Virus record (IMG/VR): IMGVR_UViG_3300037189_001027
Span: 1 to 31,268 of that record
DNA from: a virus
Length of the DNA: 31,268 nucleotides
Direction: 5' to 3' (one strand)
Position 1 is the first letter of the stretch, and each line of letters opens with the position of its first letter. Positions 711 through 26,005 of this stretch are shown here, piece by piece. The translations under genes were made by a program, and so were the position numbers. The notes beneath the pieces are model-generated. The model saw only the letters and a program-made list of their open reading frames with translations, ran no database searches and was not told the origin of the DNA.

Positions 711-2105
711 ATGGGCATTTTCGACGTATTTCGTAAGAAAACATCGGCAAAAGAAGCCAATACGTTGTTTGGGCAAACCGCCCTTGGCAACCAGATTACC
801 TATGGCGCGACTAAGCAAGGCTCCGTTCTAAACAGCCAACTGCTGTATGTAACGACAAGTTCTGTCAATGATGCTGGTCGGACTGTCGATGTGTCCATGC
901 TGTCGAGAAATTCGACGGTTATGTCATGTATTGGTGCTAAAGCGCGGTCCATTGCTCAACTTCCTCTGCGGGTTATGTGCCGCACTGAGGATGGCAAGTA
1001 CGTTGACGCTATTGAAGGCGAAGGCGTAACTGAGCGCAATAAGGCTAAAGCAATTCAGGTGATGAATCTGATTCAGAACCCTAATGCCTTCCAAAGCCAA
1101 TACGAGTTCTGGTATCAGTGGCTCATGTGGCATGAGTTGTCTGGCGAGTCTTTTACTATGTGGTGGAGGAAGGACCAGGGCAATCCTAGCCAGACCCCGA
1201 TTGAGATGTACATCCTGGATAGCACTCTGATTGCCGTTCAGGTAACTCCTACGCGGTATCCGTCCTACAGGTTGTCTACTCCTTCTTATGGATTCTCTAA
1301 GGACGAACCTTTGGCCTCGCATCAGGTCATGCACATCAAGGACATGGCATGGCAGGGCTCTGCGGGCTTTAACAAGGGCATCCTGGCGACGGAACTGGTC
1401 TCTCTTGATCAAGACATCGACCTGTACGCCAACTACGTCATGCTCAACGGGGCTAAACCCTCTGGCATGTTCGTAACCGAGTCGGTTATCCCTGATGGCA
1501 AGTACAAGGAAATCGCTGCTCGGTTGAAGGAGGCCTGGGCGAACATGACCGGAAGCCAGCGTACTGACGCTTCTAAACCCGGTCAGGGCATGCTGCTGGA
1601 CCAAGGCATGAAGTACATGCCGCTGGAGATGTTGACTCTTCAGGACGCTGATGCGCGAGAGTTGAAGCTGCAAACAATGAAGCGGATTTGCGGTGTATTT
1701 GGTGTTCCTCCTTCCATGATAGGAATCGGAGAGTCTAAGTACAACAATACTCAAACCATGCTGGATGAGTATTACAAGTCGGCCATTTACCCCATCATTG
1801 TCAACATCCAACAAAAGCTGAAGCAGCATCTGCTGTCTCAGTACCCTAGCCTTTGCATTGAGTTTGATACTCGGAACTTCCTGAAGGGCGCTCCGCTGGA
1901 TCAGATGAATTTTGCGAAGGCTGGCGTAACTGGTGGTATCCTTACGCCAAATGAAGCTCGAAACTACCTTGGAATGTCAGATATTGAAGGTGGTGATGAG
2001 TTGGTCGCAGATAAGAACGACACGGCAATCCCAGGTTCTAGCCCTCAAGACACGGGCGGCGGCGGTGGAAACCAGCGCACAAGGATGAACATTGGCACAA
2101 CGTGA
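711..2105 (+). CDS. Portal protein, HK97 family
   Basis: A 464-residue protein, normal length for HK97-family portals, which form the dodecameric DNA channel at one capsid vertex. Family features include the early MGIFDVFRKK segment, SCIGAKARSIAQLPLRV, LSGESFTMWWRKDQ, the FGVPPSMIG motif near residue 335 and MLDEYYKSAIYPI. The C-terminal tail is glycine-rich and low complexity. A good Shine-Dalgarno (aggaaaagggg) precedes the ATG. The gene lies between TerL and the protease, as expected for a head module. The 110 bases after it hold no convincing gene. Confidence 0.95.
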   Translation: MGIFDVFRKKTSAKEANTLFGQTALGNQITYGATKQGSVLNSQLLYVTTSSVNDAGRTVDVSMLSRNSTVMSCIGAKARSIAQLPLRVMCRTEDGKYVDAIEGEGVTERNKAKAIQVMNLIQNPNAFQSQYEFWYQWLMWHELSGESFTMWWRKDQGNPSQTPIEMYILDSTLIAVQVTPTRYPSYRLSTPSYGFSKDEPLASHQVMHIKDMAWQGSAGFNKGILATELVSLDQDIDLYANYVMLNGAKPSGMFVTESVIPDGKYKEIAARLKEAWANMTGSQRTDASKPGQGMLLDQGMKYMPLEMLTLQDADARELKLQTMKRICGVFGVPPSMIGIGESKYNNTQTMLDEYYKSAIYPIIVNIQQKLKQHLLSQYPSLCIEFDTRNFLKGAPLDQMNFAKAGVTGGILTPNEARNYLGMSDIEGGDELVADKNDTAIPGSSPQDTGGGGGNQRTRMNIGTT

Positions 2106-2215: not shown

Positions 2216-2995
2216 ATGAAACTGAATCTGGTCTGCGAAGCGAAACTCAGCCTACCCGGAAAAGCCGAGGAAAGCGGAAAGATTGAAGCTCGCGTAACCA
2301 CCTGGGGTGCCCGAGAGGGTGCCGACGGTCGCAAGTTCTTCTATAAGCCCGAGGGTTTTGCTACCTGGGCCGAGCAATTCGGCAAGGCAGGCAAGCCTCT
2401 GCCCATGTTCCTCAATCACATGAGCGACTCCATGCCTGTAGGCGAATGGACTAGCTTTGAGTTTGATGATGAGGGCATGAACGCCAACGGGCGTCTTTAC
2501 CTGAACACCACTGCCGGGTCTGACCTGTATCAGATTATGACGGAAAGCCCCAATATGTTTGGTGGTGTTTCTGTCGGTGCCTATGCAGATGAATATTGCA
2601 TGGTGAAGGAAGACGGGTCCATGTGCGACCAAGACGACATGGACGAAGGCTACTTTCAGATCACCAACGGTGGCCTGCGGGAAGTGTCCGTAGTGATGTA
2701 TCCGAATAACCCGATGGCAGAAGTCAAAAAGTTGGAGTTCTTCCGGCCTGACGGTTCTGCTGATCTCAAGGTTCTGGAGTCGGCTCTGCGTGAGGCAGGG
2801 TTATCTAGGAAAGATGCGGTCACTGCCGCGTCTACGTTCAAGCAAGTCCTGGAACAGCGTGACGTTGTGAAGGATGAGCCAACTGCGCCGCAGCAGAGTG
2901 AGTCTGACGCGGAAGTGACCACTGAGGCGGAAATTCTCCAGGCTCTTGAAGAGCGCGAGTTGCTCCGTGTCCTGTCCCAAAAACTGAAAGGTTGA
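2216..2995 (+). CDS. Prohead maturation protease, HK97 type (peptidase S78)
   Basis: A 259-residue serine protease expected to act inside the prohead, removing the scaffold-like delta domain of the capsid protein before expansion. The likely catalytic His is H68 in FLNHMSDSMPVGEW and the likely Ser is S119 in GGVSVGAYADE, both typical of the family. The C-terminal third is charged and helical, which may serve as an internal scaffold or targeting tail. AGGGG lies upstream of the ATG. Its stop overlaps the ribosome-binding region of the next gene, so protease and capsid protein are probably translated from one message. Confidence 0.92.
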   Translation: MKLNLVCEAKLSLPGKAEESGKIEARVTTWGAREGADGRKFFYKPEGFATWAEQFGKAGKPLPMFLNHMSDSMPVGEWTSFEFDDEGMNANGRLYLNTTAGSDLYQIMTESPNMFGGVSVGAYADEYCMVKEDGSMCDQDDMDEGYFQITNGGLREVSVVMYPNNPMAEVKKLEFFRPDGSADLKVLESALREAGLSRKDAVTAASTFKQVLEQRDVVKDEPTAPQQSESDAEVTTEAEILQALEERELLRVLSQKLKG

Positions 2996-2997
2996 AA

Positions 2998-4326
2998 ATG
3001 TCTACCGTGATCCTCGAAAAGCTGGACCAAATTGAAGCCCAGCAAACCGCCAAGATCGAATCCGCCGTTGAGTCGGTGAAGGCTGAAGTCAGCGAGAAGA
3101 TTGCTGCTCTGGAAGCCAAGGTTGCCAGCGTTCAAACGCCCGCGATCATCCGCCCGGTTGCCAAGTCTGTTCGCCAGGACGTTAACCGTCTGGCCCGCGA
3201 ACAACTGAAGAACATCGTCGGTGGCAAGAGCCAGTTCGAGCGTGAACTGAAGTTCTTTGCTGACGAATCTCAGTACGAGGCGTACCTGAAGGAAGCCAGC
3301 CAACTGACCGCTGGCGGCGACGGTAAGGGTGGCCGCACTGCCTATGACCCCGTGTTCGCTGCTCTGCGTTTGGCTAACCCGATGCGCGGTCTGTCGCGTA
3401 CCGTGGCTACCGATGGTTCTTCGTATCAGTTCCGCGTGAAGACCGGCGATGCTGGTCCGCAGTGGGGCTATGGCATTCAAAATAACGGTGCCGCTACCAC
3501 GGAAGACACCAGTATTTGGCAGCTTGTGCTAAAGGACATCAACGTGCAGTTCCCGATCCGCACTGCGGCTCTGGACGACATCGATGGTCTGGAAGCCAAC
3601 GTGGTTGACGACATGCTGGCCGAGTTCGCCCAGGCTGAAGCCCTGTCGATGATCCAGAACAACGACCAAAGCGGCACGGGCACCTCGGTGTCTACCGGTG
3701 GCGCTGACGGTCTGCGTGGCCTGGACCAGTACGCTGGCGCTAACGCTACCTACACGGGTGGTAAGGTCTCTACGGCATCGTTCGGCACCTCTGGCACGGG
3801 CTCTACCTCGGGTCTGCATAGTCTCGCTACCTACGACCAGTTGACCTCCAACGTCAACACCGTAGCTGCCAATTCCGTGACCTACAAGGACATGATCAAT
3901 TGGATTTACAGCCTGCCGCAGCAATACTGGACTCCGAATGCCAAGTTCATGTTGAACCCGGTGTTCCTGGCTGGCATTCGCGGCCTGACCGACACCAACG
4001 GCGCACCGATCTTCAATCGCAATGAAGGTCTGAGCGTTGACGGCATCGTGGGTCAGTTGCTGGGCTTTGACGTTATCGTCAACAAGTATGTGGACAACCC
4101 CAGCCAAGCCACCACCGGCACGGCAGGTACGAACAGCTACTACCCTGGCTTCTTCTGCGATTGGAGCCGTTTCCACACCATCGTGGACCGCCTGAGCATG
4201 GTGATGCGCCGCTACGATCAGACTGCTCCTGGCTTCATCACTTTCTACGGTGAGAAGCGTTTGGGTACGTCTGTGCGCGATCCTAACGCGGGGGTGCGTT
4301 ATCGCTCGACGGCCACCGCGACCTGA
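2998..4326 (+). CDS. Major capsid protein, HK97 fold, with N-terminal delta domain
   Basis: A 442-residue protein starting at ATG 2998. A TTG at 2992 is in frame but overlaps the protease stop and is less likely. Residues 1 to about 100 are charged and heptad-like (LEKLDQIEAQQTAKIESAV), as expected for a delta/scaffolding domain removed by the upstream protease. The shell-forming part begins near LTAGGDGKGGRTAYDPVF. It ends with TAPGFITFYGEKRLGTSVRD, a typical capsid C-terminal signature. Codon use is strongly biased toward C- and G-ending codons compared with neighbours, fitting very high expression. A rho-independent terminator follows directly. Confidence 0.95.
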   Translation: MSTVILEKLDQIEAQQTAKIESAVESVKAEVSEKIAALEAKVASVQTPAIIRPVAKSVRQDVNRLAREQLKNIVGGKSQFERELKFFADESQYEAYLKEASQLTAGGDGKGGRTAYDPVFAALRLANPMRGLSRTVATDGSSYQFRVKTGDAGPQWGYGIQNNGAATTEDTSIWQLVLKDINVQFPIRTAALDDIDGLEANVVDDMLAEFAQAEALSMIQNNDQSGTGTSVSTGGADGLRGLDQYAGANATYTGGKVSTASFGTSGTGSTSGLHSLATYDQLTSNVNTVAANSVTYKDMINWIYSLPQQYWTPNAKFMLNPVFLAGIRGLTDTNGAPIFNRNEGLSVDGIVGQLLGFDVIVNKYVDNPSQATTGTAGTNSYYPGFFCDWSRFHTIVDRLSMVMRRYDQTAPGFITFYGEKRLGTSVRDPNAGVRYRSTATAT

Positions 4327-4330
4327 TGAG

Positions 4331-4358
4331 AAAGGGGGGATGATCTCCCCCCTTTTTT
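4331..4358 (+). terminator. Rho-independent terminator between the two capsid genes
   Basis: There is a perfect 10-base-pair stem, AAAGGGGGGA with TCCCCCCTTT, around a 5-base TGATC loop, and the 3' arm runs into six T residues (4353-4358). It starts 5 bases after the major capsid stop and lies 20 bases before the start of the capsid paralogue. The structure is close to ideal. Transcription of later late genes must then depend on readthrough, antitermination or a further promoter. Confidence 0.93.
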
Positions 4359-4377
4359 CAATCAACAAGGAACAGCC

Positions 4378-5379
4378 ATGATCGAGAAAATCCTAGACGG
4401 AATCAAGCAATCTATCCATGAGGGTCGGCAAGTCAAGATTGATTTGTCGGAAGCATCGTCCCTAACGGGTTCCGGTCTGGGCAAAGGCGGTCGGACTGTT
4501 TTTGACGACTCGTTTGCAGCACTTCGCCAAGCAAACCCTTTCCGGTTGGGCGCTCGGCAGATTCCTGTAAGCGGGTCTGATGCTCTTTTTGTTGCCAAAA
4601 CTGGTAACGCAACGAATTCCACACCGTGGGGATATACGCCTGCCAACAACACCGGTAGCCCGAATATCGATACGGCAATCTGGCAACTCCCAGTTCGCGA
4701 CATCTCTGCCAGCTTTCCGGTTCGCTCCGCAGTCCTGTCTGATGTCAACGGACTTGAGGCGACTCTGGTAGAAGACCTGATGCTTGAGTTTGCTGCCCTT
4801 GAGGGCGCATCGATGGCAGTCAATAGCGACCAAGCAGGATCGACCACAACGGCCACAGGCGCGACATCTGGCCTGCGGGGCCTGGATATGTACCTTGACG
4901 GTGCTACGTCGGCCTACGGGACTTCTGGGACCGCTATCACCAATGGTATCCACACGATTGCTACGCAGACTGCAACAACTGCTGTTGCCTACGCTGACCT
5001 GACTGCTGCTGTTAGCAAGTTGCCTTCTCAGTATTGGGCACTGCCAGGAAATGCTTGGTACATCCGTCCCCCCACGATTCAGGCTCTGCGTGACCTGAAG
5101 GACTTGCAGGGTCTGCCGGTATTCCTCGAAATCGGTGATGAGGATGGTGCTGCTGTAGGGCGGATGTTTGGCTTCCCAGTGATTCCAAATCCGTATCTCA
5201 GCACTACCTACCCGATCTATCTGGCTAATTGGCCGCGCTTCCTGACCATCGGTGACACGATGGAAATGAACGTGCAAATGATGGAACAAACGGCACCCGG
5301 CTTTGTTACCATGTACGCAGAAAAGCGTGTGGTTTCATCCGTGCGCGATCCGTTTGCTGGAGTGCGAGTCAAGGTATGA
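4378..5379 (+). CDS. Second HK97-fold capsid protein, paralogue of the major capsid protein without the delta domain
   Basis: A 333-residue protein that aligns through its length with the shell domain of the preceding gene. Matched segments include LTGSGLGKGGRTVFDDSFAA against LTAGGDGKGGRTAYDPVFAA, DTAIWQLPVRDI against DTSIWQLVLKDI, GLRGLDMY against GLRGLDQY, and a shared TAPGF.T.Y.EKR...SVRDP.AGVR ending. Only about 33 residues precede the first block, against about 102 in the major protein, so the coiled delta domain is missing. An AAGGA site precedes the ATG. It may form pentamers or a special vertex (as T4 gp24 does beside gp23), assemble as a minor shell subunit, or be a diverging spare copy. 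Homology is clear; role is inference. Confidence 0.9.
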   Translation: MIEKILDGIKQSIHEGRQVKIDLSEASSLTGSGLGKGGRTVFDDSFAALRQANPFRLGARQIPVSGSDALFVAKTGNATNSTPWGYTPANNTGSPNIDTAIWQLPVRDISASFPVRSAVLSDVNGLEATLVEDLMLEFAALEGASMAVNSDQAGSTTTATGATSGLRGLDMYLDGATSAYGTSGTAITNGIHTIATQTATTAVAYADLTAAVSKLPSQYWALPGNAWYIRPPTIQALRDLKDLQGLPVFLEIGDEDGAAVGRMFGFPVIPNPYLSTTYPIYLANWPRFLTIGDTMEMNVQMMEQTAPGFVTMYAEKRVVSSVRDPFAGVRVKV

Positions 5380-8974: not shown

Positions 8975-9431
8975 AGTCTACAGGCTTGAGGGCTTTGAAG
9001 AGCTTGAGCAGCAGCTCATGCAACTCGGCAAAGCCTATCGTACTGACACGGTGGCGAGGCGGACCCTTGTCAAAGCTGCAGAAGCCGCTATGAAGCCTGT
9101 GGAGGATATGACTCGACAGACTGCTCCTTATGACTCAACCAGCAGCGGACCTATCCACCTGAGAGACACGGTTCGTCTGGATGCGCGTATTCCTAACGGT
9201 CGAGACAAGATGTCCGACTATGTGAGCGATGACGATGCGGCCATTGCGGTAGTTAGTGTGAAGAAGTCTGCTGTGTCTTTGGCGCAAGAGTTTGGGACCA
9301 AAAAACTCAATCCTCAACCGTTCCTTCGGCTTTCACTCAGCACGCAGGCCACTTCAGTTCTTTCCATCCTAAAGACTGAACTTGCAAGGATAATCCCGGA
9401 GTACGCAGCGAGTCTTAGAAGGAAGAAGTAA
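8964..9431 (+). CDS. HK97 gp10-like tail protein
   Basis: A 155-residue protein with a GTG start at 8964 behind GAAAGGA. The HK97 gp10 family layout is visible: a long N-terminal helix (FEELEQQLMQLGKAYRTDTV), APYDSTSSGPIHLRDTV in the middle, and a SLAQEFGTKKLNPQPFLR block matching the family's E-F-G-T...P-F-R signature. These proteins act in head-tail joining or tail completion. Here it follows the chaperones rather than preceding the tail tube, which is atypical. It ends with a TAATG overlap into the tape measure. Confidence 0.8.
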   Translation: MERKVYRLEGFEELEQQLMQLGKAYRTDTVARRTLVKAAEAAMKPVEDMTRQTAPYDSTSSGPIHLRDTVRLDARIPNGRDKMSDYVSDDDAAIAVVSVKKSAVSLAQEFGTKKLNPQPFLRLSLSTQATSVLSILKTELARIIPEYAASLRRKK

Positions 9432-12334
9432 TGGCATCAAATAATATCGCTCGACTTGGGGTTGTCCTCGGGATCGACACGGCGGTCTTTAGCGCAGATA
9501 TTGATAAAGCCATTTCTGAGAATCGGCGGTTTGGCCGGGAGATGAAGCGCGGCAGTGAAGCCGCAATGCAAGAGGCTCTGAACCTCAAGTACGCTACTGA
9601 AGATTACGGCAAGGAAGTATCAAGGCTCGCCCAGGTTGAGCGTCAGTTGGCGACGGGCCGCATGTCGATGGCCCATGATACGGTCAAGCAGGCACTCAGG
9701 GACCAAGCAAAGGCTTACGATGACGCTGTAGCGGCTGCCAAGCGTCTCCAGCAGGCCCAGGCTATAGACAAGGACGTCCAGGCTCTCAAGTACGCCACAG
9801 AGGACTACGGCAAGACCCTGACGAAGGTTCAGATCATTGAGCGTGAGATCGCCAATGGCAAATACCGCACTGCCACTGATGATCAGAAGAAGCGACTGCT
9901 TGATCAGGCTCGGGCCTATGACGCTGTTGCAGTCTCTGCTCAGAAGGTTGTAAACGTACAAGGCAAGTTGACAGACCAGCAGAGGATGGCACTGTCGTAT
10001 CAGACGACGGACATCGTTACCTCGTTGGTCAGCGGGCAAAACCCGTTCATGGTTTTGATGCAGCAAGGTGGTCAGCTTAAAGACCAGTTCGGTGGCGTTG
10101 GGAATGTATTTAGGGCTATTGGTCAGACACTGACGCCAATGCGGCTACTTATTGGTGGAGTGGCTACTGCGTTTGGAGCACTAGCTATTGCTGCTTACAA
10201 AGGCGCAGATGAATCTTCAAAGTTACGTGACTCGTTAATTTTGACGGGGAACTATGCAAACATATCTGCTGGTCAGTACAGGGATTTGGCTCTAAGCATT
10301 AGTAATGACTACAACGTGGCGATTGGAGATACAAAAGATATTCTTAACGCAGTTATTTCTTCAGGAAAGTTTACTGATACTTCTCTGTCTTCTGTTGCAA
10401 GAGCAATTTCAATTATTGCCAAGATTTCTGGAGAAAGCGCATCACAGGTCGCAAGCAAGCTGATTCCAAGCCTTGATGGAAGTGCCTCTTCTGCTAAGCG
10501 ACTTAATGACCAATACAATTTCCTTACGCTGGCTCAATACAAACAAATTGAGGCATTAGAAAAACAAGGCAAATTGCAAGATGCAATTAGGATCAAAGCC
10601 GACGCTTTGACTGCGGCAAAGGTCAGCCAACGTCGAGAACTTGGTGTTCTTGAGCGTTCTTGGGAAGCTCTGAAAAAAGCAGCATCTGATACTTGGGATG
10701 CGATGCTTGGTCTTGGAAGAAAAGAATCTACGGAAGCCGGGCTTAAAAGAGTTTCTGAGGCTCTTAAACTAAATACAGAAGACTTAGAAATACAGAAAAA
10801 AAATCCTGTAGCTACAGCTATATTGATGGAGGAAAGGATGAGACTGCTTGCGGAGCAGTCTTCATTGCAAGAAATTGAAAGGATGCGAAAGGCATCTGCT
10901 TCTAAGTCTGCTGAAGAAAGAGGCAAGATTGATCTATACGCCAATGCTGGAGGCTTATCTACTCAGCGATCTATTGATGACGCAGTAGCCAAGCAAAGGC
11001 TTGAGAACTTCAAGACCCAGCAAAGTCTTATGGCCGATGCTGAAGTTCTGGCTTTTGCCGAATCAAACTCCAAGATTGAAGCGGCAAGGCTTGAGAGAGA
11101 CAAAAAGAATAGAGATCAAAACTCAGTATTTGCTGCTCAGAACGAAGCTGAGTACCATCAGACTGTTATTGCTTCTCGCTTAGGTCTGTCTCAGAAACTC
11201 ATGGAGATTCAGCAAAAGCGCGATCTCATGGGTCTTGATCTTAGGAAGCAGCAGATCGAACAAGAGTTCAATATCCGCTTCAATCAAGAGACTGAGATTG
11301 GCAAGGTTGAGGCCGAGCGCGATAAGAAGATTGCGCTGGCTAGGCTTAATCTTCAGAAAAAGAACATCGAAGAGCGTAATCTGTACGCCAAGGAAAACGA
11401 TACTGCTTTGGCTGCGGAGATTGTCGGCATCGAAGCTGACGCAAATAGGCAGATTGAATCAATCCGTCTGAATAGGTTTATTAACCTTCAGAACGCAGTC
11501 CAAGAATTTAGAGACGAAACAGATAGAGATCGGGCGTCCGCTAGTGCGGCTGAAATGCAGGCAGCACAAGCATTGGCTTCTGAGATTGATCAGAAGTTCT
11601 TGTCTGTTGCTCAAGACCGTGCAAGTCTGCAAATTCAGATGGACATGGTTAACCTGTCTGAGAAGGATCGCAATCTTGCGCTAAACAGATTGCAGACAGA
11701 ACAAGAGATCGCCGCAATCAAGAGAAATCAAAACCTCACTGAAACGGACAAGCAAGCAGCTATTGAGCGGGTCAAGAATCTTGGCTTGCAAAGGGACAAC
11801 TTGATCCTGATGCAGGAAGAGATGAAGAAGGTTGGCGAAGTCAACAACGCTATCTTTGGCAACATGGAGAAAGCGTTGGAGAACTTTGTTCGCACTGGCA
11901 AGTTTTCGTTTAAGGATTTCGCTAGGTCAGTCATCCAAGACTTGATAATGATCCAGTTGAAGTCGGCGGCTACTTCAATCCTTCGCACGATTATTGGCGC
12001 GGCCACGGGCAATCCTATGATGATGCTGCCGTCATCTACTGGACAGTACGGAGTTGGGCCTACAGGATTTGCCAATGGTGGCGATCCACAACCTCATAGA
12101 GCAGCATTGGTCGGTGAGCGTGGGCCTGAATTGTTTGTCCCACAAACGGCAGGGACCATCATTCCAAATAATGCTCTTGGAAGCCTGGGCGGAACTCAAA
12201 TCATTAACAACTACAACATCCAAGCGATTGACGTAAAGAGCTTTGAGGATAGGATCATGGGCAGCAACAAGGCTGTCTGGGCTGCGAACTCTTATGCCAA
12301 TAAATCATTGGCTATTGGCCGGGGAAGAGCGTAA
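9431..12334 (+). CDS. Tail tape measure protein
   Basis: A 967-residue protein that sets tail length. At about 1.5 angstrom per residue it implies a tail near 145 nm (inference). Residues about 190-222 contain YQTTDIVTSLVSGQNPFMVL, followed by MQQGGQLKDQFGG, the conserved block of lambda gpH-like tape measures. A hydrophobic segment follows near 238-257 (LLIGGVATAFGALAIAAY). Residues 450-800 are mostly charged coiled coil. The C terminus has FKDFARSVIQDLIMIQLK and VGERGPELFVPQTAGTI, common to the family. Residues 52 and 119 begin two copies of a 67-residue repeat (LKYATEDYGK). Confidence 0.95.
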   Translation: MASNNIARLGVVLGIDTAVFSADIDKAISENRRFGREMKRGSEAAMQEALNLKYATEDYGKEVSRLAQVERQLATGRMSMAHDTVKQALRDQAKAYDDAVAAAKRLQQAQAIDKDVQALKYATEDYGKTLTKVQIIEREIANGKYRTATDDQKKRLLDQARAYDAVAVSAQKVVNVQGKLTDQQRMALSYQTTDIVTSLVSGQNPFMVLMQQGGQLKDQFGGVGNVFRAIGQTLTPMRLLIGGVATAFGALAIAAYKGADESSKLRDSLILTGNYANISAGQYRDLALSISNDYNVAIGDTKDILNAVISSGKFTDTSLSSVARAISIIAKISGESASQVASKLIPSLDGSASSAKRLNDQYNFLTLAQYKQIEALEKQGKLQDAIRIKADALTAAKVSQRRELGVLERSWEALKKAASDTWDAMLGLGRKESTEAGLKRVSEALKLNTEDLEIQKKNPVATAILMEERMRLLAEQSSLQEIERMRKASASKSAEERGKIDLYANAGGLSTQRSIDDAVAKQRLENFKTQQSLMADAEVLAFAESNSKIEAARLERDKKNRDQNSVFAAQNEAEYHQTVIASRLGLSQKLMEIQQKRDLMGLDLRKQQIEQEFNIRFNQETEIGKVEAERDKKIALARLNLQKKNIEERNLYAKENDTALAAEIVGIEADANRQIESIRLNRFINLQNAVQEFRDETDRDRASASAAEMQAAQALASEIDQKFLSVAQDRASLQIQMDMVNLSEKDRNLALNRLQTEQEIAAIKRNQNLTETDKQAAIERVKNLGLQRDNLILMQEEMKKVGEVNNAIFGNMEKALENFVRTGKFSFKDFARSVIQDLIMIQLKSAATSILRTIIGAATGNPMMMLPSSTGQYGVGPTGFANGGDPQPHRAALVGERGPELFVPQTAGTIIPNNALGSLGGTQIINNYNIQAIDVKSFEDRIMGSNKAVWAANSYANKSLAIGRGRA

Positions 12335-12966: not shown

Positions 12967-13616
12967 CTACAACGATGGATGCGCTTTCTAGCGCAAGCAT
13001 TAGACATACCGAGTTTGTTCGCCTTACTACTGCAAGCGTAACGCTCAACTTCTGTAGTGCTGGTGGAAGTATTACTGTTGGAGGAATTACGTTTACTGGC
13101 GTTTATCAGCTATTGAACGTCAGCGACATTCCTCAAGATATCAAAAGCACATCGGACGATGTTTCTATTAGCCTTACAGGCTTAGACCCGGCAGATATTG
13201 TTTATGTCCTTGGCGCTGACGTAAAGGGAAGTAAGGTAGAAATCTGGCGCGGGTTCTTGGATTCCAATAATCAGGTCATAACGACACCGACTACGCAATT
13301 CTTTCGGCGTTATACGGGTTTTGTTAACAGCGTCAGTATCAATGAAGAATTTGATGAACAGAACAGAATGCGGATTGCGACGATTACGCTGGCCTGCACA
13401 TCGTTCAGAAGGATTCTAGAAACCAGAATTGCAAGCCTAAGAACCAATCAGAAATCCTGGCAGTTCTTTTATCCTAGCGACACATCCATGAATCGTGTGG
13501 CTCAGATCAGTAACCAATACTTTGACTTCGGCAAACCTCCTCAAACAGGAAGCGTGAGTGATCCAGATACTGGCGTTGGAAGCACATACAACCCGATTGA
13601 AAGTGCTGGCGCATGA
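12963..13616 (+). CDS. Tail tip / baseplate hub-like protein, position of lambda gpL
   Basis: A 217-residue protein overlapping the previous gene by ATGA. It has an N-terminal beta domain, VEIWRGFLDSNNQVI in the middle, and a C-terminal QFFYPSDTSMNRVAQISNQY segment followed by DFGKP. The pattern of a described substrate loop plus 'F.P.D..M..V....N....G' recalls DUF2163/BR0599-type hub proteins. Unlike lambda gpL, no C-terminal four-cysteine iron-sulphur site is visible. Probably part of the tail tip complex next to the gpJ-like protein. Confidence 0.6.
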   Translation: MTTTMDALSSASIRHTEFVRLTTASVTLNFCSAGGSITVGGITFTGVYQLLNVSDIPQDIKSTSDDVSISLTGLDPADIVYVLGADVKGSKVEIWRGFLDSNNQVITTPTTQFFRRYTGFVNSVSINEEFDEQNRMRIATITLACTSFRRILETRIASLRTNQKSWQFFYPSDTSMNRVAQISNQYFDFGKPPQTGSVSDPDTGVGSTYNPIESAGA

Positions 13617-14053
13617 TAAGACTAGCCAACAAGTTCGACATTGCCGCGTGTACTGAGATGATCAGGAATTATGCGGAAGAGTCTCCTGTTGAAATACTAA
13701 AAGACACAAAGCATCACAATGATAAATACATCCGTGAGATGCTGGAGAGTTTAATTATTGGTAGAGGATTTGTTTTAGTAGATGACCAGATGAGAGGCAT
13801 GTTGGCGGCAATCATCGCTCCTAACTTCTGGTGCCCAACCGTCTCAGAGGTCAAAGAGGTTGCTTGGTGGGTACATCCAGATCATAGGCAAGGAACAATA
13901 GGCGGAAGGTTGTTCTTTGAGTTTGTTAAGCATTCTGAGATGCTTGTCAAGCAAAAACGTGCGGAGATTGTATGCGCATCTCTTATGCACACAAGCCAAG
14001 TGCATGAACTGCCTGGGTTCAAGAAGATAGAAATGACGTTTGTTAAGGAATAA
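13613..14053 (+). CDS. GNAT-family N-acetyltransferase in tail operon
   Basis: A 146-residue protein with the GNAT acetyl-CoA binding motif A near residues 85-99 (VHPDHRQGTIGGRLF), preceded by the beta strand VKEVAWW, and a C-terminal VHELPGFKKIEMTFVK typical of the last strands. GNAT enzymes transfer an acetyl group from acetyl-CoA to an amine. The substrate is unknown. It overlaps the upstream gene by ATGA and lies directly before the gpJ-like gene, where lambda has the gpK peptidase and gpI. It may modify a tail tip or host protein (inference). Confidence 0.8.
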   Translation: MIRLANKFDIAACTEMIRNYAEESPVEILKDTKHHNDKYIREMLESLIIGRGFVLVDDQMRGMLAAIIAPNFWCPTVSEVKEVAWWVHPDHRQGTIGGRLFFEFVKHSEMLVKQKRAEIVCASLMHTSQVHELPGFKKIEMTFVKE

Positions 14054-16350: not shown

Positions 16351-20155
<3,805 letters not shown>

Positions 20156-20157
20156 GA

Positions 20158-23100
20158 ATGGCAACGAAATACTGGCGCGGTGGGGCCGGCACCTGGGATG
20201 CCACAACAGCCACAAACTGGTCCGACACTAGTGGCGGTGCTGGTGGCGCCATTGCGCCCTGTGCGTTGGATGATGTCATCTTTAACTCAGCGTCAAATGC
20301 CACTGCATACACGGTAACTATTGCTGCTGGGGCAGTATGTAGAAGTCTAAACATTGCTGGGCCTGCTGCGGGAAACGTCACGGTTGCTGGAACCGGAGCT
20401 TTTGGAATATTTGGCAGCTTAACTCTTGCGGCAACAGGTATTACTAGAACCTACACTGGAGCAATTACATTTAGATCAACCACAATTGGCAATACAATTA
20501 CAACTAATGGAATATCACTAGCGTCAGCAATTGTTTTTGATGGAGTTGGAGGCGCATGGACTCTTGGTTCTGCATTTACAACAAGTGGCAACTTTACTTT
20601 TAATAATGGAACATTTAGCACATCAAATTTTGCATTAAGTTTTAGCAGTTTTGTAGGAGCTACTGGAACAAAAACATTAAATCTTGGTTCAAGCACAGTA
20701 ACGGCGTCACAGATATCTAATATATCTGGGCTTACTTTAAACGCTGGAACTTCTACAATAAATATTACAAATTTAACCCCAACTTTAGGAGGCGCAGCGT
20801 TTTCGGGGGCTACATTTTATAATGTTGCATTTACAAATGCAAGCCCAGCTACTTCTATTGCAATTTACGGATCAAATACTTTTAATAATTTATCTTTTGT
20901 TACGACAACATTAGCTGGTTCGGTTGCAATATTTTTAACTGGAAATCAAACTATAAACGGCACGTTACAAATTTCTGGTTCTGGGGCAATTTCTAGATAT
21001 TTTCTTAGATCAGATATTTACGGCGTAACAAGAACAATAACATGCAACGCGATTTCTGCATTGACTGATATTGATTTCAGAGACATTACTGTTTTAGGCA
21101 CTTCATCTCCTTGGTCAGGCACAAGACTTGGCAATGGCTTAGGAAATACAAATATCACATTTAATGCTGGTGTAAATAAGTTTTGGAACCTTGCTGCCGG
21201 TGGGGCCTGGACTGCTGCAGCTTGGGCAACAACAAGCGGAGGAACTGCATCTGCACTTAACTTTCCTCTTCCTCAAGATACAGTAAATATTGTTGATACT
21301 GGTCTTAATTCAGGCGCAACAATATCTGCATTTAATAGCTTTGCCATAACTACTTTAAGTATTGGTTCTAGGACGTTGGCTTTTACATTAACAGGAACGA
21401 ACCCAGAAATACAAGGTAATGTTGTTTTGTGTTCAGCGATGACCGCAACGGGATTTAGTTTTAATGCAACAGGAAGAACTCAGCAGCTAATAACTACTGC
21501 AACAAGAACATTAGCTGCAATTGGAGTAATAAATATAGGAAATTCAGTTGTTTTTCAAGACAACGTAACTACTAGTGGATCTATTTCTGTATTTGCTGGA
21601 ACACTTGACACCAATGGCAAAACAGTATCATGCAATTCTCTTGCTGCAGGCGGAGGATATGATTTATTTACAAAAACATTTACTTTTGGCGCTAGTTCTA
21701 TTACTTGCGCAAATTTTGGTGGAAATGTTAATTTACCTGTTGTTATAAATGCAGGCACATCGACTATTACTTTAACTGCAGCAAATGCCAATTTGGGTTA
21801 TTTGGGTCAAACATTAACATTTAATAACGTCACATTTTCTACTGCCACAACATCTCCATCTATTTTTGCAACCAGTTCAACATTTAATAATTTAACTTTT
21901 ACTGCTTCAACTGCGTTAGGTGTGAATAGTATATTTTTATCTGGCAACGTAACAGTAACCGGAACTTTGGCTTTTGGTGGGGGCACTTCAGTTACGCAAA
22001 GATTAGGAGTTATTAGCGACACTATTGGGACAACAAGAACAATTAGCGCTGCAACGGTCACTGGACTTACTAACATTGACTTCAGAGATATTAATGCAAC
22101 TGGAGCCGCAAACTGGACTACAGGTACTAGACTTGGAGATTGTCAAGGCAATACTGGCATAACATTTCAGACAAAAACCGTGTATTGGAATTTAACTGGA
22201 GCGCAAAATTGGACAGCAACTGGTTGGGCGACAACAAGCGGAGGAACACCTGCTGTTAACAACTTTCCATTAGCTCAAGATCAAATAGTTTTTGACAATA
22301 CAGGTGCGGCAACAACTATAACTGTAAATGCGTTATATAACATAGGGTCTATTATTGCTGGCACAAGAACAACAGCATGGACTTTAGCGGGAACAATTGG
22401 ATTTAATATATATGGTAGTACTGTGACATACGGATCAGGTATTACTGCAAGTATTACCGGCACATATAATTTTTTATCAAATGGAACAACACAGACATTT
22501 ACAACTGCAGGCAAAACACTTAATCAAGTTATTTCAATACAAAAGCCAAGCGGGATATTTAATCATGGAGATGCGGCTACGTTTTCTGGCACAAACGGAG
22601 TAACCCTTTCCACTGGTAATTACACTTACAACACTCAAAATTTTAATATAACCGGCGTACATAGTATTGCTTCTACATTTGTTGGAACAATAAATTTTGG
22701 ATCAAGCACAATTACATGCGCTGGGTCTTTTAATAATTCATCAACAACTTGTACATTAAACGCTGGAACTTCCACAATAAATTTAACAGCTGCTTCAACT
22801 AAAACATTTACTGGTGGAGGGAAAACTTTTAATATTGTTTCTAACAATGGCGGCACAAACACAACCGCATTAACTATTGTTGGCAGCAATACATTTACTA
22901 CGCTACAAAATACCGCTAATCAAGACTTGACATTAACAAGCGGGACTACGCAAACTGTAACTAATTTTAATTACACTGGAGCAAGTGGAAACGTGGTTGA
23001 TATAAACACCACAACCCCAGGTTTGCAAGCTACTTTATTAAAAGCATCTGGCCCTTGGTATGCTGGAGCGAACTCTACTGATGGTGGAAATAACAGCGGA

Positions 23101-23208
23101 TGGACCTTCACTGCTGGAGGCTCTACCAACTTTGCGTACATCAAGGACATCATTGCAGCAGTCACTTCAGTAGCGCAAAATAGCAACTTCTTTTTCTTTT
23201 TGAGGTAG
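20158..23208 (+). CDS. Large repetitive beta-solenoid-like adhesin / second fibre protein
   Basis: A 1016-residue protein rich in Thr, Ser, Asn, Ala and Gly with alternating hydrophobic residues, expected to fold as a parallel beta solenoid. It contains three related modules about 335 residues apart, each opening with a Trp motif: YWRGGAGTWDATTATNWSD (residue 5), FWNLAAGGAWTAAAWAT (about 341) and YWNLTGAQNWTATGWAT (about 675). The second and third are preceded by IDFRDI and GTRLG.. motifs. The first 260 and last 120 bases resemble neighbouring genes, while the middle is clearly AT-rich. Probably a receptor-binding or surface-attachment protein; no catalytic motif is visible. Confidence 0.75.
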   Translation: MATKYWRGGAGTWDATTATNWSDTSGGAGGAIAPCALDDVIFNSASNATAYTVTIAAGAVCRSLNIAGPAAGNVTVAGTGAFGIFGSLTLAATGITRTYTGAITFRSTTIGNTITTNGISLASAIVFDGVGGAWTLGSAFTTSGNFTFNNGTFSTSNFALSFSSFVGATGTKTLNLGSSTVTASQISNISGLTLNAGTSTINITNLTPTLGGAAFSGATFYNVAFTNASPATSIAIYGSNTFNNLSFVTTTLAGSVAIFLTGNQTINGTLQISGSGAISRYFLRSDIYGVTRTITCNAISALTDIDFRDITVLGTSSPWSGTRLGNGLGNTNITFNAGVNKFWNLAAGGAWTAAAWATTSGGTASALNFPLPQDTVNIVDTGLNSGATISAFNSFAITTLSIGSRTLAFTLTGTNPEIQGNVVLCSAMTATGFSFNATGRTQQLITTATRTLAAIGVINIGNSVVFQDNVTTSGSISVFAGTLDTNGKTVSCNSLAAGGGYDLFTKTFTFGASSITCANFGGNVNLPVVINAGTSTITLTAANANLGYLGQTLTFNNVTFSTATTSPSIFATSSTFNNLTFTASTALGVNSIFLSGNVTVTGTLAFGGGTSVTQRLGVISDTIGTTRTISAATVTGLTNIDFRDINATGAANWTTGTRLGDCQGNTGITFQTKTVYWNLTGAQNWTATGWATTSGGTPAVNNFPLAQDQIVFDNTGAATTITVNALYNIGSIIAGTRTTAWTLAGTIGFNIYGSTVTYGSGITASITGTYNFLSNGTTQTFTTAGKTLNQVISIQKPSGIFNHGDAATFSGTNGVTLSTGNYTYNTQNFNITGVHSIASTFVGTINFGSSTITCAGSFNNSSTTCTLNAGTSTINLTAASTKTFTGGGKTFNIVSNNGGTNTTALTIVGSNTFTTLQNTANQDLTLTSGTTQTVTNFNYTGASGNVVDINTTTPGLQATLLKASGPWYAGANSTDGGNNSGWTFTAGGSTNFAYIKDIIAAVTSVAQNSNFFFFLR

Positions 23209-24469: not shown

Positions 24470-26005
24470 ATGCCATTCAGCAGCAATAGCGGAAAAGACT
24501 TCATCAAATCACTTAACCTGCAAGCCAAGACAATCCTAGATGTCGGCGCGGGTAGTGGCACCTACAAAGACCTCCTGAATCTCAAAGGCAAGTGGACTGC
24601 TCTAGAGATTTGGGAGCCTTACGTTGACAAGTATTCTTTGCGAGACAAATACGAAGAAGTTATCGTCGGTGATGTCAGGTCAGTAAATTTTCAAAAGTAC
24701 GATGTCTGTTTCTTGGGTGATGTGCTTGAGCACATGACCGTTGAGGAAGCGGTTTCCGTAGTCAACAAAGCCAAACAGAACTGCACCACGGTCATCATCA
24801 GCATTCCTCTAGGTCACTACCCTCAAGACGAATACGACGGGAATCCTTACGAGAAGCATGTAGTCCCTGATTGGTCGCACCAGCAGGTTCTGGAGAACTT
24901 TGGCGAGCCATATCAGTTTCACATTGACAACGAGATCGGTGTCTACGTTTACAGGCGTCTGAAGATCGCTGTCTATGCCATCAGCAAGAACGAAGAGCAG
25001 TTCGTCCAGCGGTTCTGCGAGTCTGCTGCCCAGGCTGACCTGATCCTGATTGCCGACACCGGCTCGACAGATGGGACAGTCGAGACAGCCGAATTCTACG
25101 GAGCGGAAGTCCCGTCCATCTGCATCAGTCCGTGGCGTTTCGACAAAGCCCGAGATGCCGCCTTGGCGCTGATTCCGCGAGACTTTGATGTCTGCATCAG
25201 CTTGGACCTAGATGAGGTCATGGAGCCTGGGTGGCGCGAAGAGATCGAACGGGTCTGGAAGCACAACACAACCCGGCTTCGTTATAAGTTCGATTGGGGC
25301 CACAACATCCAGTTTTATTACGAGAAGATTCATCATCGTCACGGGTATCACTGGCACCACCCCGTGCATGAGTACCCGGTCCCTGATCAGCGGATCAAAG
25401 AGGTCTACGCTCAGACCGACAAGCTACTGGTCAGCCACCACCCCGATCCCACCAAAAGCCGGGGACAGTACCTCGACCTTCTCAGGATGGCCGTTAAGGA
25501 AGACCCGAGGTGCCCTAGAAACGCTTTCTACTTCTCTCGGGAGTTGACCTTCTACCGGCTCTGGGATGAGGCTCTGGAGGCTCTTAACGCTTACCTAGAG
25601 ATGCCAGAGGCTACTTGGCCTAATGAGCGTTGTTATGCGATGCGCCTGCTGGCTGACTGCTGGGAGGCTAAGAACGATCACTACCAAGCCCAACAGTGGG
25701 TCAGGAGGGCGGCGGCTGAAGCCCCATACACCAGGGAACCTTGGGTCCGCATGGCAGAACTAGCCTATACGCGAAAGGATTGGCAGGAGTGCTTCTATGC
25801 GGTGAATCAAGCACTTTCAATCAAAGACAAGGCACTTGTGTATACCTGCGACCCGTCCTGCTGGACAGAGAAACCTTATGACTTTGGTTCGATTGCTGCG
25901 TGGCATCTAGGCTACAAAGAGATTGCTGTCGATTGGTGCAAAAAAGCACTTGAGTTCAACCCTGCTGATGCTAGACTGCAATCCAATTTAGTCGCCATCT
26001 CCTGA
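24470..26005 (+). CDS. Three-domain protein: SAM methyltransferase, family 2 glycosyltransferase and TPR repeats
   Basis: A 511-residue protein with AGGA upstream of the ATG. Residues 20-160 form a class I SAM methyltransferase with motif I TILDVGAGSGTYKDLL and later VCFLGDVLEHMTVEEA. Residues about 165-330 form a GT-A glycosyltransferase with IAVYAISKNEEQF, IADTGSTDGTVETAEFYGAE and the metal-binding DLD in ISLDLDEVMEPGW. A HWHHPVHEYPV segment typical of this GT2 subgroup follows. Residues about 335-511 are helical TPR-like repeats (LWDEALEALNAYLEMPEA; IAVDWCKKALEFNPADARL). It may modify a fibre, capsid or host surface glycan. Target unknown; it is the last gene before the terminator. Confidence 0.85.
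   Translation: MPFSSNSGKDFIKSLNLQAKTILDVGAGSGTYKDLLNLKGKWTALEIWEPYVDKYSLRDKYEEVIVGDVRSVNFQKYDVCFLGDVLEHMTVEEAVSVVNKAKQNCTTVIISIPLGHYPQDEYDGNPYEKHVVPDWSHQQVLENFGEPYQFHIDNEIGVYVYRRLKIAVYAISKNEEQFVQRFCESAAQADLILIADTGSTDGTVETAEFYGAEVPSICISPWRFDKARDAALALIPRDFDVCISLDLDEVMEPGWREEIERVWKHNTTRLRYKFDWGHNIQFYYEKIHHRHGYHWHHPVHEYPVPDQRIKEVYAQTDKLLVSHHPDPTKSRGQYLDLLRMAVKEDPRCPRNAFYFSRELTFYRLWDEALEALNAYLEMPEATWPNERCYAMRLLADCWEAKNDHYQAQQWVRRAAAEAPYTREPWVRMAELAYTRKDWQECFYAVNQALSIKDKALVYTCDPSCWTEKPYDFGSIAAWHLGYKEIAVDWCKKALEFNPADARLQSNLVAIS

Follow-up and report, generated by a model that had tools for sequence, protein, structure and literature searches.

A conserved tandem pair of HK97-fold capsid paralogues in small water phages, with the second protein as a candidate vertex subunit

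T4 is the single virus described with a division of labour between hexon and vertex proteins (PMC12407261). The propeptides of its two shell proteins comprise 65 residues (gp23) and 10 residues (gp24), and some of the gp23 mutations that bypass the vertex protein gp24 are located in the A domain (PMC9958956). In RcGTA and HK97, one capsid protein occupies both pentamers and hexamers, unlike the split that is proposed below. Two major head proteins, gp086 and gp087, have also been reported for Ma-LMM01 (PMC5780444). These two do not align with each other and so are not detectable paralogues, and they were set aside as a similar pair.

The locus studied here lies in the virus record IMGVR_UViG_3300037189_001027. 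The window, i.e., the whole stretch of DNA that was analysed, is 31,268 bases long with its 5' edge within the terminase gene, and its gene order is terminase (partial), portal, S78 prohead protease, P1, P2, head-tail adaptor, and tail genes (Table 1). A DNA search at the scale of the whole window against phages gave zero matches. Elsewhere in the window, the tail module contains an acetyltransferase-like gene (phrog_1249, 13613–14053), and a collagen-like, repetitive tail fibre protein of 1039 aa is encoded at 16830–19949. The 1016-aa protein encoded at 20158–23208 has no PHROG match, and the composition of its gene is unlike that of its neighbours (GC3 0.24, ENC 40). A beta-1,4-glycosyltransferase-like gene (phrog_13126, 2e-97; 24470–26005) adjoins the endolysin.

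Table 1 Positions of the head genes and associated features in the window.
Feature	Position	Strand	Evidence
Portal protein	711..2105	+	PF04860, 3.2e-58
Prohead protease (Peptidase_S78); propeptide removal presumed	2216..2995	+	PF04586, 2.8e-8
P1, major capsid protein, HK97 fold, 442 aa	2998..4326	+	PF05065, 8.8e-26; PHROG major head protein, 8e-29
N-terminal delta-like domain of P1 (residues 1 to ~102), mostly helical; presumed scaffold/propeptide	2998..3303	+	Segments found in the P1 family only
Intrinsic terminator-like hairpin between P1 and P2	4328..4358	+	-20.6 kcal/mol
Shine-Dalgarno-like AAGGA of P2	4367..4371	+	
Second HK97-fold capsid protein P2 (333 aa), lacking the long delta domain; proposed as vertex (penton) protein	4378..5379	+	PF05065, 1.7e-21
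P2 short conserved N-terminus, ~30 residues, one helix, ending in EAS-LTGSG; proposed short propeptide	4378..4467	+	Alignment
P2 E-loop tip; site of a ~70-aa insert in some relatives	4600..4671	+	DSSP strands 68–74 and 99–105
Head-tail adaptor; start overlaps the P2 stop codon	5376..6026	+	phrog_40, 2.1e-11
Tape measure	9431..12334		

P1 and P2 are tandem HK97-fold capsid paralogues. A preliminary description of the DNA had placed two such genes at 2998–5379, and both were found there, each running from an ATG to a stop codon at the ends given in Table 1, with 51 bases between them. The scores against PF05065 (Phage_capsid) are 91.4 bits for P1 and 77.3 bits for P2 (curated cut-off, 24.2), and both proteins match the PHROG major head protein. 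The common shell domain claimed earlier was borne out by an alignment with 41% identity and an E-value of 1e-72, extending from EAS.LT.GG.GKGGRT to SVRDP.AGVR. P2 is hence a paralogue of the major capsid protein encoded adjacent to it, as would be expected of a gp24-like protein, and no other capsid found is as close to either of them as they are to one another. The best fold match of the P2 model (mean pLDDT of 71.9) was the RcGTA capsid with a Z score of 21.0, and HK97 gp5 was matched with a Z score of 16.1. These matches support an HK97 fold of P2 consisting of the spine helix, E-loop, and P and A domains. How individual RcGTA subunits ranked among the fold matches was not counted toward any pentamer position. 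The P1 model was poor and was set aside, as its pLDDT of 52.9 was too low for use or for superposition on P2; the fold of P1 is assigned from Pfam and from a profile match to the RcGTA capsid (6tba).

Relatives were collected by searches starting from P2, P1, the P1 of Methylophilaceae phage P19250A, and one divergent representative each of P1 and P2, together with other fetches, and more than 300 loci were obtained. The pair is conserved: both genes are present in 73/73, 55/55, and 93/93 of the loci readable on both sides, although these counts are not independent, because the sets overlap and nearly all of the loci come from one collection. Complete P1–P2 pairs number 255, all with an intact P2 reading frame. 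No relative with P1 alone was found with three different P1 queries at loci readable downstream of P1. Azospirillum phage Cd, the closest outgroup with a name (22.6%), is annotated with a single capsid gene. Among annotated phages, the pair occurs only in P19250A (KX815270; complete genome of 38.7 kb), the single isolate found, whose P1 and P2 are 59% and 54% identical to the window proteins, respectively. In that record, gp5 is labelled "gene transfer agent capsid protein" and gp6 "hypothetical protein", a hairpin lies between them, and paralogy is not mentioned. Four MAG contigs, from which host assignment is unreliable, also have the pair. The family that carries the pair consists of small phages (~39 kb) from water.

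According to the preliminary description, P2 begins about 70 residues later than P1 and is devoid of the N-terminal delta region. In the alignment, Glu99 of P1 falls on Glu25 of P2, i.e., 74 N-terminal residues are missing, and the segments of the delta region were found in the P1 family only. The helices of the P1 delta-like domain are predicted with low confidence in the P1 model, and the end of the domain was placed from the RcGTA chain, which starts at residue 100. Residue 31 of P2 corresponds to RcGTA residue 100 in the structural match, so the mature shell domain should begin at about this point, leaving extensions of ~100 residues in P1 and ~30 residues in P2. In the P2 extension, Leu6, Ile9, Lys10, Glu25, Ala26, and Ser27 are invariant or near-invariant in the alignment, and residues 2–15 form a helix in the P2 model. 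By analogy with HK97-type phages, both extensions would be cleaved propeptides. A hidden longer start of P2 was rejected because the frame opens just 16 codons upstream of the ATG and AAGGA precedes that ATG. An upstream open frame resembling a retained delta domain in L032–L042 was also rejected, as a start with a ribosome site is present near the usual place.

The core stem of the hairpin between P1 and P2 is formed by GGGGGGA (4334–4340) and TCCCCCC (4346–4352) and is followed by T6. Terminators of this kind were detected in 147 of the 166 distinct P1–P2 spacers, compared with 0/165 after P2, 2/168 before P1, and 0.7% of mononucleotide shuffles. GC-rich hairpins were present in 164 of the 166 spacers versus 6% of mononucleotide shuffles, and the pairing is kept by 55 different stem-loops in 75 spacers. 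The ENC value of P1 (36.9) corresponds to the strongest codon bias among the window genes tested, while that of P2 (53.8) is ordinary, and P1 is more codon-biased than P2 in 54 of the 58 genomes. The terminator and the contrast in codon bias suggest that P1 is probably made in excess of P2, and that P2 is grouped with the connector and tail genes, whose products are needed in low copy. A terminator after the major capsid protein gene is common in phages, and the hairpin may serve the whole downstream operon rather than P2 specifically.

Some spacers have additional features. The hairpin is missing from the relative L137, whose P1 is lengthened to 461 aa and ends directly at the start of P2. 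L013 and L046 contain a 179-aa ORF located ~34 bases into the spacer, between the terminator and P2, and the spacer of L128 has the same length. This ORF starts with MYYTYIHFKK..FYIGKGRG and is similar to GIY-YIG homing endonucleases, with weak Pfam support. The spacers of L032, L038, and L084 contain a conserved 100-aa ORF ending with W.PGEKGYPSAGRIAWALWGGDPGK.WAEKEHAK that matched no Pfam family above the cut-off.

We propose that P2 is a dedicated pentameric vertex protein similar to T4 gp24 and that P1 forms the hexamers, with a probability of roughly 0.6. The preliminary description had suggested a specialised vertex, pentamers, or mixed hexamers for a phage with two shell proteins; the gp23/gp24 model gave the best fit, and mixed hexamers fared less well, as discussed below. 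The vertex role is favoured because P2 keeps the whole shell domain without the scaffold-like part, has a low expected dose, and resembles T4 gp24 in gene order and in its short N-terminus, and also because, among the possible roles of a minor HK97-fold subunit, only this role has a precedent in a phage. Pentamers of HK97 also have the delta domain, so that its absence from P2 is not in itself a sign of pentamers. The vertex reading is further weakened by the small number of positions, only six, that are fixed differently in the P1 and P2 families.

With P2 as the vertex protein, transcripts would mostly stop at the hairpin after P1, yielding P1 in large excess, and read-through past the hairpin would supply P2 together with the connector and tail proteins. 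Assembly of the prohead would be directed by the ~100-residue delta domain of P1. P2, with only the ~30-residue extension, would be unable to direct assembly alone and would be recruited at five-fold positions. As a minor shell protein, it would most likely be located as pentamers at the eleven non-portal vertices, with the hexamers built from P1. The S78 protease would then trim both proteins before expansion of the shell. P2 would thus be present in virions at the pentamer position in a cleaved form, with a dose ratio of about 55:360 for a T=7 head.

An unlikely alternative, but the strongest of the competing ones, is a mixed shell in which P2 would enter hexamers together with P1, at many sites or at random, to tune stability or to display surface features. 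Paralogous HK97-fold proteins mix randomly in two-component Family 2B encapsulins (PMC12407261), and 57 positions are conserved in common between the P1 and P2 families. An insert of ~70 extra residues in the E-loop, observed in P2 of 14 of the 255 pairs (L239–L252; P2 of 404–416 aa), resembles a stretch of phage tail-fibre families and could be a display domain. A domain at this loop would face the exterior of a shell, and P2 may accordingly contribute to the shell surface. The identity between P1 and P2, however, is only 43–45%, which may weigh against mixing, and the expected doses are unequal. In addition, the A-domain loops at the capsomer axis differ between the two proteins. Apart from the N-terminus and a few residues at the C-terminal end, the longer segments restricted to P1 are residues 247–254, 282–288, and 371–374, with shorter A-domain loops in P2. 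Judging from their position relative to the spine helix, these segments, which follow that helix and precede the C-terminal strands, are predicted to be in the A domain. The A domain lines the capsomer axis and also harbours some of the gp24-bypass mutations of T4 gp23, in keeping with the vertex role.

It is less likely still that P2 acts in a few copies at one special place or assembly step, such as a portal-vertex ring, prohead initiation, or size control. P2 lies beyond the terminator, where expression is expected to be low, and next to the head-tail adaptor gene; this location and its lack of a scaffold-like domain are consistent with such a role, but P2 has kept the HK97 shell domain in full, C-terminal strands included, which should be needless there. 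We regard it as very improbable that P2 serves as an alternative capsid protein for a separate small-headed, GTA-like, or encapsulin-like particle. Encapsulins, which have no delta domain, are among the fold matches of P2 but score below the best phage and GTA matches. Two-component encapsulins are characterised by a cargo enzyme beside the shell genes in a cellular genome, whereas P2 is always beside P1 in the head-tail operon of a phage with no cargo gene adjacent.

When 58 P1 and 58 P2 proteins were placed in one tree (midpoint root, no outgroup), each set constituted one side of a single branch with an SH-aLRT value of 100. The tree points to one ancient duplication of the capsid gene, which would have given rise to P2 in the ancestor of the phage family. 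Gene conversion as a cause of the similarity of P1 and P2 was ruled out, as the identity within the same genome (43.1%) equals that between different genomes (43.4%). The distance matrices of P1 and P2 correlate with each other (r = 0.57, Mantel p = 0.001). Median dN/dS values, roughly estimated by the Nei-Gojobori method from 94 pairs with dS below 1.2, were 0.15 for P1 and 0.12 for P2. Relaxed selection on P2, of which a value near 1 would have been the sign, is contradicted by this strong purifying selection, and the end motifs, whose retention had been taken to argue against decay, are conserved across the P2 alignment. Despite the annotation of P2 in P19250A as only a "hypothetical protein", the possibility of P2 being a duplicate in decay, or one that is not produced, was rejected as hardly credible, given the low dN/dS, zero losses in readable relatives, its own Shine-Dalgarno sequence, and the reading frame intact in every complete pair.

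Descent from the T4 gp23/gp24 duplication was not found; P1 and P2 match PF05065, and the closest solved sequence found is the RcGTA capsid (6tb9/6tba). Because P2 is nearest to P1 and the nearest solved relatives are RcGTA and HK97, the duplication is independent of that of gp23/gp24. With gp23/gp24 the pair has nothing but the fold in common, so that a vertex role, if true, arose separately. We consider the chance slightly better than even that a dedicated HK97-fold vertex protein evolved here independently and for a second time, in a family of ~39 kb phages for whose heads one capsid protein should suffice. The conserved pair would then be an independent replicate of the splitting of a capsid gene into hexon and penton genes. 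A partial search of the open literature found no paper describing the pair, and a description elsewhere is possible; neither virion proteomics nor a particle structure turned up for any member of the family. The 255 aligned pairs allow a comparative search for residues that choose five-fold versus six-fold packing, and the existence of the isolate P19250A opens the pair to direct virion proteomics.

The closest folds found were those of RcGTA and HK97 gp5, and P1 resembles the latter in having an N-terminal extension of the HK97 style. We know of no delta-domain asymmetry in Family 2B encapsulins. Those of Streptomyces lydicus also have two paralogous HK97-fold shell proteins, which form one shell (PMC12407261), but they are of non-phage origin with random incorporation. 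T4 gp23 and gp24 are likewise paralogous HK97-fold shell proteins, and the second of them has the shorter N-terminal part, as does P2, in which its cleavage is presumed. The portal-protease-major capsid protein-P2 order matches the 20-21-(22)-23-24 order of T4, and the ~60-aa I domain in the E-loop of gp23 is comparable to the E-loop insert in some P2 members. The two systems differ in genome size (~170 kb in T4 versus ~39 kb), in the identity between the paralogues (~20% for gp23–gp24 versus 41–45% for P1–P2), and in the scaffold, which is a separate core in T4 and the delta domain of P1 itself in these phages.
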